DNA from: Clostridiales bacterium
Lineage (GTDB): Bacteria > Bacillota > Clostridia > Christensenellales > CAG-138
Assembly (NCBI GenBank): GCA_024691085.1
Contig: JAILNX010000022.1
Coordinates: 1-42,241 of the forward strand
Reading direction: 5' to 3'
Length of the DNA: 42,241 nucleotides
The position numbers were made by a program, and so were the translations under genes. Position 1 is the stretch's first letter, and every line of letters begins with the position of its first letter. The notes under the pieces are model-generated. The model did no database searches. It saw only the letters and a list, made by a program, of their open reading frames with translations, and had not been told where the DNA came from. Shown here piece by piece: positions 2,897 to 8,770 of the stretch.

Positions 2897-5752
2897 TTAC
2901 AGATCGAATACGGTGATGCCTTCGATCTCCTTAAGTGCTGAATCGCAGCCGACTACGCAGACGGCACCGTTTGCAGCGCAGTTAGAAAGCTCCTTCGCGA
3001 ACGCCATGAGCTTTTCCTTGTCGGTCGCGAGCATCTGGGCGCGGACCTTCCTGCGCTTTTCGTAGGTAACGCCGTCGAAATAGTTCATATCGGCCTCGGC
3101 ACCCTGCTCCGCGGGGGAACGAAGGGGCTCGGTGTTGCCGACGGTCGAGATAATGAACTTCGTGATATCCTCGCTGCCGCCGCAGAAGGATTTGACGAAG
3201 TCGGCCTCCTCGCCGAACACGTCAAGGCTCCTTGCGGGGGAGGGATCGCGGTAGGTGTAGTGGCAGAGGACGCCGCGGTCGGAGACGCGCATGCCCGCGC
3301 CGTAGGCGCCGCCCTGTACGCGTACGCGGTTCCACAGATGACTTAAGCTGATGATGCTCGCCGCTACCTTCATGGAGCCGTCGTTCCCGGACACGAGCAC
3401 GCCCTTTTCGGCGAAGCTGACCTGCGCGGGGATGCGGACGCCCATCTTATCGGGAAGGGGAGAATCGTAATGCACTTCGGCGGGAGCGGGAAGTCCTTCG
3501 GGCAGGGCCTCGACGAGGGGCTTGACGCAGTGCTTCTCGTTGGCGGTCTGGCTGACGGTAAGGCGGCTCCTTACGATCGAATTGTCGCGGATGGATTCGA
3601 GCTTTTTGACGAGCTCCGCCTTCTTTGCCTCGAAGTCGGCCGCAAGCTCCTTGATGAAGCTGCGGAAGGTGTAGCCGCTCGCGGCCTCGTTTACGACGCC
3701 GGAGGAGAGGTAATGCGAGGTGACCGCGTACATGCCGAGCATATGGCCGGCCATTATCGCCCTCTGCTTGGTCATTTCGTCAAGCTGAGCGACGATCTCC
3801 ATAATGCGGTCGGTCTCGTCGAAGACGGTCTCGGTGATTATCTCGACAACGAGATCCATCGCCTTGCCGAGGTTTTCGTCCAGCACGTCGCAGAATACCG
3901 CGAGGTACGGCGTGCACGCCTCGGGCTTCCTCATGGAGGCGTTGATCTCGAACTTGAGTCGGCCGATATTGGTCTTGATCTCGGTCTGAAGCTCGGAGAC
4001 GCTGTGACGCTTCGTGGGCAGCTTGGTGTAGAGCTGGCACAGGAGGCTCGCCGCAGAAAGCGAGGGAACGTCGAGATCGGTGAGCGTGAAGTAAAGATTG
4101 AGGTGCGTGATGCCCTGCGAGGGGATCGCGTGATAGATCACGGGCAGGCCGTTTTTAAGGCATACGTCGGTCGGCTCGTCAAGGGGATCGGGGCTGACCT
4201 CGTCAAGGGGCAGCACGGGGATCGTCGCGGTATCCTCCTCGGAATCGGGCGCCTCCTGCCACGCGTGCAGACGGTCGTTGAGCTCATTAAGTTCCGCGAT
4301 ATCCGCTTCGCTCATCGCCTTGTACATCTTCTCGGCGCGCTCGGCTTCCTCCTTGCGAAGCTTGTCGCCGTGCTCCTTCGAGGGCAGCACGACGAGCTTC
4401 GACATCATGCCGAAATCGAACATCTCTTTGAGGGCGGCGTCGAAATTGCCGTTCTCGATATCCTCACGCAGCTCCTTTATGGTCTCGTCGTACTCGAGCC
4501 AGAGCATCGGATCTCCGCCGTAGAGGGAGCCCTGATAGCTCATGATGCAGCGGAAGAGTCCCGCGGGCTCCTGCATATCCTTCACGCGGAAGGCGTAGCG
4601 GTTGAGCTGTGCGGTAAGGAGAGTCTTGTCAAGTCCCTTTTCAAGGAGCGAGGAGACGACCTCCTCGGCGACCTCGCGGATCCTCGCCGCCTTGTCGGCC
4701 TCGGTATTCCTTACGACCAGCGAGATCACGCCCTGCTGGATATCCGGCTCGAAGGAAAGATCGACGTCGGTGCCGAGACCTTCCTTGAGGATAGCCCTCG
4801 TCAGGGGAGCCTCGTTGGTGTCTGCAAGGAGGGAGCAGAGGATCTGCGCCATCATGCAGCGCTTAATGTCGGAATAGTCGCTGTAAATGCGGGCGTATGC
4901 CACAACGGAGCGGTTTAAAGGATCCTCGTCGGGACCGATCTCAAAGGTGAGGGTGTTCTCGCGGGGGACCATCGCCTGCATCGGGATCTCGTGCGCGGAA
5001 TCGAACCTCTCTGATCCTAGATACTCGTTGATAAGATCGAGCGTCTTCTCAAGAGGCACGGAGCCGTCCAGATAGATCCTCGCGTTGGAGGGGTTGTAGT
5101 ACTTCCTGTACATCGCCCTGTACATATCGTACGTAAGGTCGGGGATGTTGACGGGATCGCCGCCCGAATTGAAGCCGTAGCAGTTGTCGGGGAAGAGGAG
5201 CGCGGTAATGCCCTCCTGAATGATCTCGTCGATGCCGCTCGTGGCGCCCTTCATCTCGTTGTAGACGACGCCGTTGAAGAAAGGCTTGCCGTCCTCGCCG
5301 ACCTCAAGATGCCAGCCCTCCTGACGGAAGGCGTTCGGATCGACCACGCAGCGCGGCGCGAACACGGCGTCGAGATAGACCTCGGTCAGATTGAGGAAGT
5401 CCCTCTCGTTGCGGCTCGACACGGGATAGATGGTCTTGTCGGGGAAGGTCATCGCGTTTAAGAAGGTCTGCATCGAGCTCTTCATCAAATCGACGAACGG
5501 CTCTTTGACGGGGTACTTCTTTGATCCGCAGAGGACGGAATGCTCCAGAATGTGGAACACGCCGGTGGAGTCCTCGGGCAGGGTCTTGAAGCCCACGCAG
5601 AAGAGCTTGTTCGCGTCGCCGTTGTCCAGCCAGTTAAGCTCGGTGCCGACTTTTTCATGGCGCATCTCGATGAATCTGCCGCCGAGCTCCTTCGACTCGC
5701 GAATGCGCTCGACCTTAAATCCTTTGATCACGGAACCGGTTTCAAGTTTCAT
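2897..5752 (-). CDS. M16C (presequence protease-like) zinc metallopeptidase
   Basis: This 951-residue protein has the length and two-half organisation of the M16C group (PreP/CymI1-like), which degrades short peptides inside a closed chamber. The inverted zinc motif HILEH is at residues 67-71. The third zinc ligand is the glutamate of NEMKG at 166, matching the family. The C-terminal half is the inactive partner domain, with the usual glycine-rich and basic substrate-binding region near residues 830-860. The start is supported by GGAGG six bases upstream and by a perfect promoter further up. No signal peptide, so the enzyme is cytoplasmic. The job is probably peptide turnover; the natural substrate cannot be read from the sequence. 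Confidence 0.93.
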
Positions 5753-5787: not shown

Positions 5788-5816
5788 ATTATATCCGTTC
5801 GGCTTATGGGTGTCAA
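5788..5816 (-). promoter_or_regulatory. Consensus sigma-A promoter of the M16C gene
   Basis: On the minus strand TTGACA (5816-5811), exactly 17 bases, then TATAAT (5793-5788): a full match to both consensus boxes. It is divergent from the promoter of the zinc-ribbon gene. Confidence 0.85.
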
Positions 5817-5827
5817 TGTTTTTGATG

Positions 5828-5856
5828 TAGACAACCGGTTTACGATATGCTATAAT
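5828..5856 (+). promoter_or_regulatory. Promoter of the zinc-ribbon repeat gene
   Basis: TAGACA (5828-5833), 17-base spacer, TATAAT (5851-5856), with the extended -10 TGC just before it. Start of transcription should be near 5863, giving a leader of about 30 bases. Confidence 0.75.
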
Positions 5857-5895
5857 ATATTCGAAAATATATGCCTGCCAAAAGGAGGTCAAGAT

Positions 5896-7716
5896 ATGGC
5901 TAATTTCTGTAAAAAATGCGGTAGCCCGCTGACGCCCGGCATGAAGTTCTGCAAAAACTGCGGCAATCCTGTCGAGGTGCCCGCAGCGGGTCTCAAGACC
6001 TGCCCGGTTTGCGGCGCGTACGTGCCGCCGGAGGACATGTTCTGCAAGCGCTGCGGAAGCAGGATGCCCGAAGAGGCCCCCGTTCCCGCTGAGTCCGTGA
6101 ACGAGCCCGCTCCCGCCGCGGAGCCCATACCCGCCCCCGTTCCCGAGAAGAAGTTTTGCCGCGGCTGCGGAGCGGAGCTTTTAGAAGGCAGGAAGTTCTG
6201 CCCGAGGTGCGGAACGCCCGTCAATCCGCCCGAACCCGCTCCCGTTCCCGCGCCCGCTCCCGTAGTTGAGGAGAAGAAGATCATCTGCCGCGGCTGCGGA
6301 GCCGAGCTTGCGGAGGGCAAGAAGTTCTGCCCGAAATGCGGAACGCCCGTCAATCCGCCGGAACCCGCTCCCGAACCCGTTTCCGCGCCCGAACCCGCGC
6401 CTGCTCCCGTCGTTGAGGAGAAGAAGATCATCTGCCGCGGCTGCGGAGCCGAGCTTGCGGAGGGCAAGAAGTTCTGCCCGAGGTGCGGAACGCCCGTCAA
6501 TGCTCCCGCTCCCGAACCCGTTCCCGCGCCCGAACCCGCGCCTGCTCCCGTCGTTGAGGAGAAAAAGATCATCTGCCGCGGCTGCGGAGCCGAGCTTGCG
6601 GAAGGCAAAAAGTTCTGCCCGAGGTGCGGAACGCCCGTCAATGCTCCCGCTACCGAACCCGAGCCTGTAGCCGAGCCGGAGCCCGCTGCAGAGCCGGAGC
6701 CCGAACCCGAGCTCATTCCCGAACCCGAGTACGTTCCCGAGAGGCCAATGCCCATGGGCGACGTTGCCTGCGACGACAGGACCGAACCCGAGCATATGAT
6801 CAACCCCGAAGAGATGCCCGAGGTCTGCGGAAAGATCTCCTGCGATCCCGCGGTCATCCCCGAATACGTCGATGAGCCTGAACCCGAACCCGTTGCCGAG
6901 CCGGAGCCCGTAGTCGAGTTGGAGCCCGCTGCAGAGCCGGAGCCCGAACCCGCTGCCGAGCCTGAACCCGACCCAGCCATGTATTCGGAGCCCGCGGTCT
7001 GCGGAAGCGTCATGTGCGACAATCCCGATCCTTCGTTTATGGGTATGGGCGCTGTGACCGCCGAGCCGGAGCCCGTCGTCGAGGTCAAAAAGAGGTTCTG
7101 CCGCGGCTGCGGAGCCGAGATCGCCGAGGGCAAGAAGTTCTGCCCGAAGTGCGGCACGCCCGTGAATCCGCCGGAGCCCGCACCCGCGCCTGCGCCGGTC
7201 AATACGGTCATCTGCCGCGGCTGCGGCGCCGAGATCGCCGAGGGCAAGAAGTTCTGCCCGAAGTGCGGCACGCCCGTAAATCCGCCGGAGCCCGCACCCG
7301 CTCCCGCGCCGGTCAATACGATAATCTGCCGCGGCTGCGGAGCCGAGATCGCCGAGGGCAAGAAGTTCTGCCCGAAGTGCGGCACGCCCGTCAATCCGCC
7401 CGCTCCCGCACCCACACCCGCGCCCGCGCCGGTCAATACGATAATCTGCCGCGGCTGCGGAGCCGAGATCGCCGAGGGCAAGAAGTTCTGCCCGAAGTGC
7501 GGCACGCCCGTCAATCCGCCGGAGCCCGCACCCGCTCCCGCCGAGAAGAAGGAGCTTTGCAGGAACTGCGGCTATGAGCTCGTGCCCGGCAAGAAGTTCT
7601 GCACCAACTGCGGCACGCCGGTCGCTCCGCCCGAGCCCCCGAAGTGCGCCTACTGCGGCGCCGAGCTTTTGGGCTCCAAGAAGTTCTGCGCCGAGTGCGG
7701 CAAGCCCGTCGAATAA
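5896..7716 (+). CDS. Protein of twelve tandem zinc ribbons joined by Pro/Glu/Ala linkers
   Basis: The 606-residue product has twelve CxxCG...CxxCG zinc ribbons, beginning near residues 4, 38, 86, 129, 178, 225, 400, 438, 476, 516, 554 and 583. The commonest unit begins CRGCGAE and ends [10 protein letters not shown]. Linkers are runs of Pro-Ala-Glu. A 150-residue acidic linker separates ribbons 6 and 7 and contains three copies of a G-x-[VI]-x-C-D motif (near residues 288, 312 and 369). There is no signal peptide or membrane segment. The start at 5896 is set by AAAGGAGG seven bases upstream. Zinc ribbons of this class usually bind zinc and mediate protein or nucleic acid contacts; this protein's partner is unknown. 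It is flanked by a divergent peptidase gene and a convergent sodC-like gene, which give no functional hint. Confidence 0.85.
6283..6640 (+). repeat. Three near-identical zinc-ribbon DNA units (first block)
   Basis: Units beginning at 6283, 6430 and 6571 (spacing 147 and 141 bases) are almost identical in DNA, including linker segments coding for VVEEKK and the ribbon core. Such identity in synonymous positions points to recent duplication or gene conversion. Confidence 0.85.
7096..7518 (+). repeat. Four near-identical zinc-ribbon DNA units (second block)
   Basis: Units begin at 7096, 7210, 7324 and 7444 (spacing 114, 114, 120 bases). The ribbon core is nearly base-for-base identical in all four. 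The 6-base length step sits in the Pro/Ala linker. Linker sequence (PVNT) and ribbon wording (AEIAEG) differ from the first block, so the two blocks expanded separately. Confidence 0.85.
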
Positions 7717-8224: not shown

Positions 8225-8256
8225 AAAAAAGCCCGCTGTTGTGAGCAGGCTCTTTT
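8225..8256 (-). terminator. Duplicate terminator downstream of rplL
   Basis: On the minus strand GAGCCTGCT, loop CACAAC, AGCGGGCT and six T residues. It is an exact copy of the terminator that directly follows rplL, giving two terminators in series before the sodC-like gene. Confidence 0.7.
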
Positions 8257-8300
8257 GTGACTGTAACTTAAAATTACTTGATCTCGATCTCGGCACCGGG
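8225..8300 (-). repeat. Second copy of the rplL tail and terminator
   Basis: The 37 bases at 8231-8267 are identical to 8358-8394, and the identity resumes through the last codons of rplL (first copy 8271-8300, original 8396-8424) with one or two changes. The duplicated unit contains the rplL terminator hairpin and its last six or so codons. Confidence 0.9.
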
Positions 8301-8349
8301 GCCGTGAGGCCGGCCGATCATTCCCGGCTTCTTCCCGAAGGAAGCGGTC
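8274..8349 (-). pseudogene. Fragment resembling the 3' end of rplL
   Basis: Reading on the minus strand, an open stretch ends in GAEIEIK and stop at 8276-8274, the same ending as rplL, but the preceding residues (KKPGMIGRPHGP) are not from L7/L12. It has no start or ribosome site of its own. It is best explained as debris of a tandem duplication or of gene conversion at the end of the rplJ-rplL operon. Confidence 0.6.
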
Positions 8350-8383
8350 AAAAAAAAGCCCGCTGTTGTGAGCAGGCTCTTTT
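8350..8383 (-). terminator. Terminator of the rplJ-rplL operon
   Basis: On the minus strand GAGCCTGCT, loop, AGCGGGCT, then eight T residues (A run 8350-8357), about 20 bases after the rplL stop. Confidence 0.85.
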
Positions 8384-8398
8384 GTGACTGTAACGAAA

Positions 8399-8770
8399 TT
8401 ACTTGATCTCGATCTCGGCGCCGGCAGCCTTGAAAGCCTCGGCGATCTTCTCGGCTTCTTCCTTGGAAACGCCCTCTTTGAGGGTGGAGGGAGCGCCGTC
8501 AACGATGTCCTTAGCCTCTTTGAGGCCGAGACCCAGCTGCTCACGGGCAACCTTGATGACCTTGATCTTCTCAGCACCGAAGCTCTTGAGAACTACGTCG
8601 AACTCGGTCTTCTCTTCAACTTCAGCCTCAGCGGCGGCGGGGCCGGCGACTGCAACGGCGGTGGCGGCGGCGGATACGCCGAACTCTTCCTCGAGGGCCT
8701 TAACGAGCTCAGCAAGCTCGAGAACGGTCATGGCCTTGACGTCAGCAATAAACTGCTCTTTGTTAAACAT
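8399..8770 (-). CDS. rplL: 50S ribosomal protein L7/L12
   Basis: A 123-residue L7/L12 of normal length. The N-terminal dimerisation part ([14 protein letters not shown]) is followed by the alanine-rich hinge near residues 36-52 and the C-terminal factor-binding domain with EKTEFDVVL and [13 protein letters not shown]7/L12 forms the stalk that recruits translation GTPases. I chose the ATG at 8770 because AGGAGG lies nine bases before it; an in-frame codon at 8824 lies in the intergenic region after rplJ. It is the second gene of the rplJ-rplL operon, 75 bases after rplJ. Confidence 0.97.

Follow-up and report, generated by a model that had tools for sequence, protein, structure and literature searches.

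What does a bacterial cell gain from a protein that consists of zinc ribbons and the linkers between them? The question is raised by one gene in a 42,241-nucleotide contig of a Clostridiales genome (JAILNX010000022.1, assembly GCA_024691085.1), the whole of which is called the window here. An earlier note, made from the sequence alone, described the product as twelve ribbons with two expanded repeat blocks and proposed a zinc store, a scaffold or a multivalent binder. Our comparison with related genomes leads us to favor, tentatively and at a little below even chances, a cytosolic hub that binds several partner molecules at once.

Gene and protein anatomy

The gene is a single open frame from ATG 5896 to the stop at 7716. 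The frame is open as far upstream as 5806, where another in-frame ATG occurs, but position 5896 is taken as the start because AGGAGG precedes it and because the orthologue in the sister species has the same MANFC start. The features of the locus are as follows.

5788..5816, minus strand: putative promoter of the divergent M16 peptidase gene, TTGACA-17-TATAAT, read from the sequence; both hexamers identical in the sister species
5828..5833, plus strand: -35-like TAGACA, 17 bases before TATAAT, read from the sequence; hexamer identical in the sister species
5851..5856, plus strand: -10 TATAAT; 28 bases from its first base on identical in the sister species
5883..5888, plus strand: Shine-Dalgarno AGGAGG, identical in the sister species
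5896..7716, plus strand: string-of-zinc-ribbons gene, 606 residues, 12 ribbons
5908..6054, plus strand: N-terminal ribbons 1-2, double zinc ribbon, residues 5-53; dN 0.03-0.04 against the sister species
6157..6627, plus strand: block 1, ribbons 3-6, residues 88-244
6628..7098, plus strand: central acidic linker, residues 245-401, 157 residues, net charge -35
6757..6774, plus strand: motif copy 1, GDVACD, residues 288-293
6823..6846, plus strand: motif copy 2, VCGKISCD
6997..7020, plus strand: motif copy 3, VCGSVMCD
7099..7500, plus strand: block 2, ribbons 7-10, residues 402-535
7558..7698, plus strand: C-terminal ribbons 11-12, unexpanded, residues 555-601

A near-palindrome, ATATATTCGAAAATAT, spans positions 5855-5870 over the end of the -10; it is identical in the sister species and is a possible operator.

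The protein contains 53 cysteines, 48 in ribbons and five in the linker. All 24 CxxC knuckles pair as 12 whole ribbons of the pattern C-x2-C-x10-C-x2-C (first residues 5, 36, 88, 131, 180, 227, 402, 440, 478, 518, 555 and 584), leaving no lone knuckle, in the order 2 + 4 (block 1) + the 157-residue linker + 4 (block 2) + 2. The Pfam model PF13240 (Zn_Ribbon_1) matched 12 stretches (E 6.9e-80, 261 bits against a cut-off of 25) and PF12773 (DZR) matched ten (E 6.5e-70), the best of which, residues 5-54, covers profile positions 1-45 of 45. Half of the 22 models listed exceeded their own cut-offs, and all 11 of these matched ribbon stretches; no other recognised domain, SPFH (band-7) included, was found by Pfam in the window protein. 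No 19-residue stretch has a Kyte-Doolittle mean above 0.84, so a membrane segment is absent. Both the ribbon count of the earlier note and its statement that the protein has no catalytic or membrane part thus hold. The lack of a hydrophobic stretch, together with a ribbon at the very start of the chain, indicates that the string should be cytosolic, a placement read from the protein sequence.

The DNA units are spaced by 129, 147 and 141 bases in block 1 and by 114, 114 and 120 in block 2, followed by spacings of 111 and 87. The unit length of 114-120 given earlier for block 2 stands, while that of 141-147 for block 1 fails for the first spacing; the near-identity within blocks was correctly seen (tandem-repeat matches by TRF of 93% and 91%). 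Charge is segregated along the chain, with a net +24 on the ribbon residues and -47 on the linkers, and the signs are the same in all six strings of the genus described below (ribbons +18 to +32, linkers -14 to -67), so these proteins are basic beads on acidic linkers.

Residues 1-155 were modelled with AlphaFold (10 rows; mean pLDDT 65.8, pTM 0.24), and each ribbon shows short paired strands in the model. Foldseek returned no match at E <= 0.001 for this model; among the 50 matches listed, many short ones were RanBP2-type or NZF fingers and some were ribosomal chains, likenesses that may serve as a lead on shape only. A sequence search of solved structures gave no match at 0.01.

Distribution and bead number

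Strings of 7-12 ribbons were found in six of the 13 genomes of the genus (G000, which is the window genome, G003, G004, G005, G006 and G010), at E <= 1.9e-40 to an N-terminal profile that was built from the first four ribbons of these same six strings and that they therefore match by construction. The best match in the other seven genomes was 3.1e-15. For G007, G008 and G009 the top match was a protein with two ribbons behind a helical-looking start; G001, G002, G011 and G012 gave none at 1e-8. Of the eight genomes with a completeness of 90% or more and a contamination of 5% or less, five carry the string. It looks dispensable, since no copy of it turned up in G002, G007 or G008, whose completeness is 90-93%. 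All six strings share one plan: an N-terminal double ribbon, further ribbons, an acidic linker region and C-terminal ribbons. One linker of 69-250 residues dominates in five of them, while G005 has several alike (49-71 residues). The linker type is PEP in the window string and G006, VEEP in G003, AEEK plus MPEP in G004, mixed in G005 and APVEV in G010. The linkers of the G005 string (L040 4308-6179) repeat D-x-P-T-[VI]-A (DDTPTVASF, EDAPTVASF, EDMPTIAIM), which resembles phosphothreonine sites read by FHA domains.

Across the order (396 genomes, 10 candidates scored per genome), the N-terminal profile had a match at E <= 1e-12 in 63 genomes, including four of the genus; the best match outside the genus was 1.6e-19. 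From some of these genomes 27 order loci (L120-L146) were translated, and the string plan was not found in the 26 that lie outside the genus. They encode SPFH-like proteins with ribbons, helical proteins with two or three, membrane proteins, a few small two- or three-ribbon proteins and, in family f19, a soluble protein with six or seven. A search with P0001 at E <= 1e-20, three candidates scored per genome, over the order (396 genomes) and the class (391) gave one match outside the genus, an SPFH protein with ribbons (L072). The N-terminal profile is preferred for the distribution, since the P0001 threshold would miss the genus members G005 (3.2e-18) and G010 (7.1e-15). A phage origin of the string was considered and rejected, with no match among 50,697 phage records.

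The closest string, that of the sister species G006 (L037/L046), adjoins the same divergent M16 peptidase gene, whose product is 84.5% identical between the two species. This orthologue has 400 residues and nine ribbons, arranged as 2 + 3 + a 69-residue linker + 2 + 2. The two species thus differ in ribbon number (12 and 9), in block size (4 + 4 and 3 + 2) and in linker length (157 and 69 residues). The four end ribbons nevertheless pair one to one, with 92-96% amino acid identity and dN/dS values of 0.043/0.48, 0.034/1.18, 0.035/0.40 and 0.017/0.29; the neighboring M16 gene has a dN of 0.10 and a dS of 0.50. The end ribbons are under purifying selection, and non-cysteine ribbon positions are also among the conserved residues.

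The blocks have a different history. Among block 1 ribbons, the window species has a third-position identity of 0.85 and the sister species one of 0.65, against 0.61 between the two; for block 2 the values, in the same order, are 0.91, 0.96 and 0.82. When all deals of the species labels were compared, the true labelling was the best of 35 for block 1 and the best of 15 for block 2, a modest test because each ribbon offers 25 codons and the copies are few and dependent. The block copies have been homogenised inside each species. The comparison was made between species with one genome each, and it supports a change of bead number. The copy-number change that the earlier note had suggested to be ongoing is accordingly seen as a difference between species, in blocks and linker as well as in ribbon count, together with homogenisation inside each. 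Repeat number and linkers are not unvarying among related genomes, which have 7-12 ribbons and a linker sequence that differs from string to string.

Such variation could also arise if the repeats grew largely neutrally, with tandem recombination gaining and losing beads and the end ribbons alone being needed. The spread from 7 to 12 beads over six strings with a different linker sequence in each fits this explanation, as does the failure to find the string in seven of the 13 genus genomes, several of them incomplete. We consider it unlikely, however: the 24 knuckles of the window string form 12 whole ribbons, and the ribbons are complete in the other strings too, though these were found as ribbon-rich open frames. 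Far less probable still is that the repeat number is an artefact of assembly. The window makes up an entire contig, one of the 38 in its genome, and the longest exact repeat within the gene, 98 bases, exceeds some assembly word sizes; yet the reading frame is unbroken, most units differ from each other, and strings of 7-10 ribbons are also present in five more genomes of the genus. An assembly collapse, if any, would make 12 ribbons a minimum rather than an excess.

The linker motif

The earlier note had drawn attention to a motif, G-x-[VI]-x-C-D, repeated three times in the acidic linker outside any ribbon. The exact GxΦxCD does occur there three times, with its glycine at residues 288, 312 and 370 (the last had been placed at 369). 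Copies 2 and 3 extend to VCGxΦxCD, with two cysteines each. When the linker residues were shuffled, with one to three residues allowed before CD, the motif appeared on average 0.003 times and three copies were reached in none of 2000 shuffles, for a motif that had been picked after being seen. GxΦ(x1-3)CD occurs three times in the window string, once in G004 and in none of the other four. The shorter [MC]-G-x-[VI] is found outside ribbons four times in the window string, twice in G004 and once in G005, numbers matched by 0, 7 and 113 of 2000 shuffles, respectively; G006, G003 and G010 have none. In G004, FMGDVAIECD followed by LMGKVA repeats the order of MGDVACD and CGKISCD in the window string, and the G005 linker reads PDICGRIAPEPEPIPE where it was aligned against a 16-residue piece of the window linker. 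The motif is thus seen again in G004 and, lacking CD, also in G005; it is absent from G006, the closest string, as well as from G003 and G010. This pattern lends weak support to the view that the motif is meaningful; it could be an old short motif that was lost more than once.

Aligning the linkers, as the earlier note had proposed, did not single the motif out. Local alignment of a 48-residue linker piece against 1000 shuffles gave 19 for G004, 17 for G005, 16 for G006, 401 for G003 and 981 for G010; the test fails in this respect since G006 gives 16 without any CD motif, and it could not separate the motif from the PE repeats. For a second piece, holding motif 3, the figures were 209, 33, 253, 225 and 999 in the same order. 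A 47-residue linker piece searched against 103 genomes of the family reached a best E of 0.0014 apart from the window, and none of the loci fetched for it and scanned had ribbons and motif together.

The possibility that VCGxΦxCD is a genome-wide docking motif was rejected. It occurs at five places in the 13 genomes, two of them within the window gene, and the other three lie opposite long frames read by eye as a Y-family DNA polymerase (L112) and FtsZ (L113, L114), and are thus antisense. No sense-strand copy was found elsewhere in the 13 genomes, and the pattern written backwards, as a control, occurs at no place in them.

Candidate functions and relatives

Under the hub explanation, twelve small basic zinc ribbons would be strung on acidic Pro/Glu/Ala linkers and grouped in two clusters. 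Each cluster would combine a near-identical block with two unexpanded end ribbons, and a long acidic spacer would keep the clusters apart. The near-identical ribbons of one block would each bind the same partner, the two blocks might correspond to two partner types or to two faces of one partner, and the string would gather several partner molecules. Recombination between repeats would alter the bead number, and hence the valence, while selection would keep each bead intact. We infer that the ribbons bind zinc and partners and that the beads within the string are equivalent. This explanation fits best because whole ribbons are conserved and not just their cysteines, the copies are alike, their spacing is flexible and no catalytic part is recognised. 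The sister species has a different number of beads, which suggests a hub with many binding sites and a valence that can evolve freely. We count against the hub that no partner gene was found, that no string was detected in G002, G007 or G008, that the AlphaFold model is weak and that the ribbon domain of YdjG has been described as DNA-binding, as discussed below. Of the roles put forward in the earlier note, a scaffold or binder would be the best fit, and a zinc store would fit less well.

A zinc (or iron) reservoir would hold about 12 metal ions per chain and return them under starvation. The 48 ribbon and five linker cysteines in 606 residues would suit such a store, as would the finding that 12 of the 33 PF13240 matches in the genome (E <= 0.001) sit in this one gene. 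We regard it as improbable, however. Structural ribbons usually hold zinc tightly, with slow exchange. A store needs cysteines only, yet non-cysteine positions are conserved between the species (dN 0.02-0.04), and the window has no match within three mismatches to one B. subtilis Zur core (TCGTAATNATTACGA), where 1.38 would be expected by chance. A string that binds nucleic acids or ribosomes, with basic ribbons contacting RNA or DNA at several points and acidic linkers spacing the beads, has a slim chance too, marginally the better of the two. It would agree with the net charge of the ribbons, with short Foldseek matches to archaeal ribosome chains (6skf_Bj, 9e6q_Ag) and reverse gyrase (8ofb), none of them at E <= 0.001, with the nearby rplL and rplJ, and with the ribbon domain of YdjG, which one paper calls a domain known to bind DNA (PMC9239133). 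Against it, the string gene lies on the strand opposite to rplL/rplJ, other sequence is directly downstream in the sister species, and none of the six strings contains a tryptophan, so that a stacking surface would need other residues. A bolder form of the hub explanation, which we hold to be doubtful though somewhat likelier than either of these, is a soluble bacterial hub of tunable valence. Its near-identical basic ribbons, carried by acidic linkers and grouped in two blocks that expand independently, would gather partners like nuclear-pore zinc-finger strings and possibly condense them, and the short C-G/M-G linker motifs would offer a second place to dock.

The string is a variant of known, poorly characterised ribbon proteins: every bead is one ribbon of the Zn_Ribbon_1/DZR type found in Firmicutes. 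Seven other translated loci of the same genome (L002-L008, part of its ribbon genes) encode one or two ribbons with other parts, whereas the string has twelve and nothing else. A related design is seen in a soluble protein of 346 residues in Oscillospiraceae bacterium SUG1209 (L047, frame 3830-4924). Its ribbons sit on Pro/Val/Glu linkers that are 72 and 62 residues long and carry net charges of -13 and -9, and its ribbon 3 is identical to ribbon 4 except for one residue. It has five ribbons rather than 7-12 and, unlike the string, a helical-looking N-terminal part as in two-ribbon coiled-coil proteins; ribbons have thus grown on acidic linkers in another parent protein too. The acidic linkers of L047 are of the PVxEETP type, and a gene for a two-ribbon membrane protein lies directly downstream. 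A protein of family f19 in the same order (L127, L140, L142, L146) is likewise soluble and consists of many ribbons only, but has 7, 7, 7 and 6 of them by pattern in 267-291 residues. Its linkers are mixed, no near-identical blocks were seen by eye, and its neighbor is a gene for a membrane protein with two or three ribbons. This recurring pair looks like a partner system.

In B. subtilis, proteins of the interacting pspA-ydj system contain zinc ribbons (PMC11237479), which would agree with a binding role, and two-hybrid contacts among them are reported (PMC8581546); the available parts of these papers do not demonstrate the ribbons themselves as the contact-makers. Those ribbon proteins carry SPFH (band-7) or membrane parts, as the YdjG/YdjI type does, and the string has neither.

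Nup153 and Nup358 carry RanBP2-type strings, in which several like zinc fingers sit on a disordered chain, and a mark of the RanBP2-type/NZF family is a tryptophan before the first cysteine. One string bead overlays Nup153 ZnF3 (3gj4_B; rmsd 0.9 over 27 columns, E 0.47) and Trabid NZF1 (5af6_I; rmsd 0.5 over 26 columns, E 1.3) in Foldseek, but the family tryptophan is missing from a protein that has none, and the likeness is an analogy of working only.

In the available text of the literature, we found no description of bacterial strings of zinc ribbons. PF13240-type ribbons are frequent in such genomes and mostly unexplained; a protein that consists of ribbons only, in a number that differs between sister species, singles out the ribbon as the unit that does the work, and the avidity built into the string would make the partner of the ribbon findable. 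The string would also offer an example from nature of repeat recombination altering valence.

The surroundings of the gene named no partner among its neighbors, as the downstream sequence differs in the sister species, and the genes adjoining the other strings of the genus are unlike those beside the window string. Partial synteny connects G004, G005 and G010, where the genes around the strings, identified by eye, include small Cys-Gly genes as well as MATE-like and biotin-transporter-like ones. A small Cys/Gly-rich protein with MCNGNFG is encoded near the string in G004 (L039 8991-9485) and directly adjoining it in G005 (L040 3984-4304), with a MATE-like gene. In the window, the neighbors are a Cu/Zn superoxide dismutase gene and rplL/rplJ on the strand opposite to the string gene. 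The 3' end of rplL and its terminator-like hairpin are tandemly duplicated at 8225-8462 (period 127, 1.9 copies), so that the end codons and the hairpin are each present twice.
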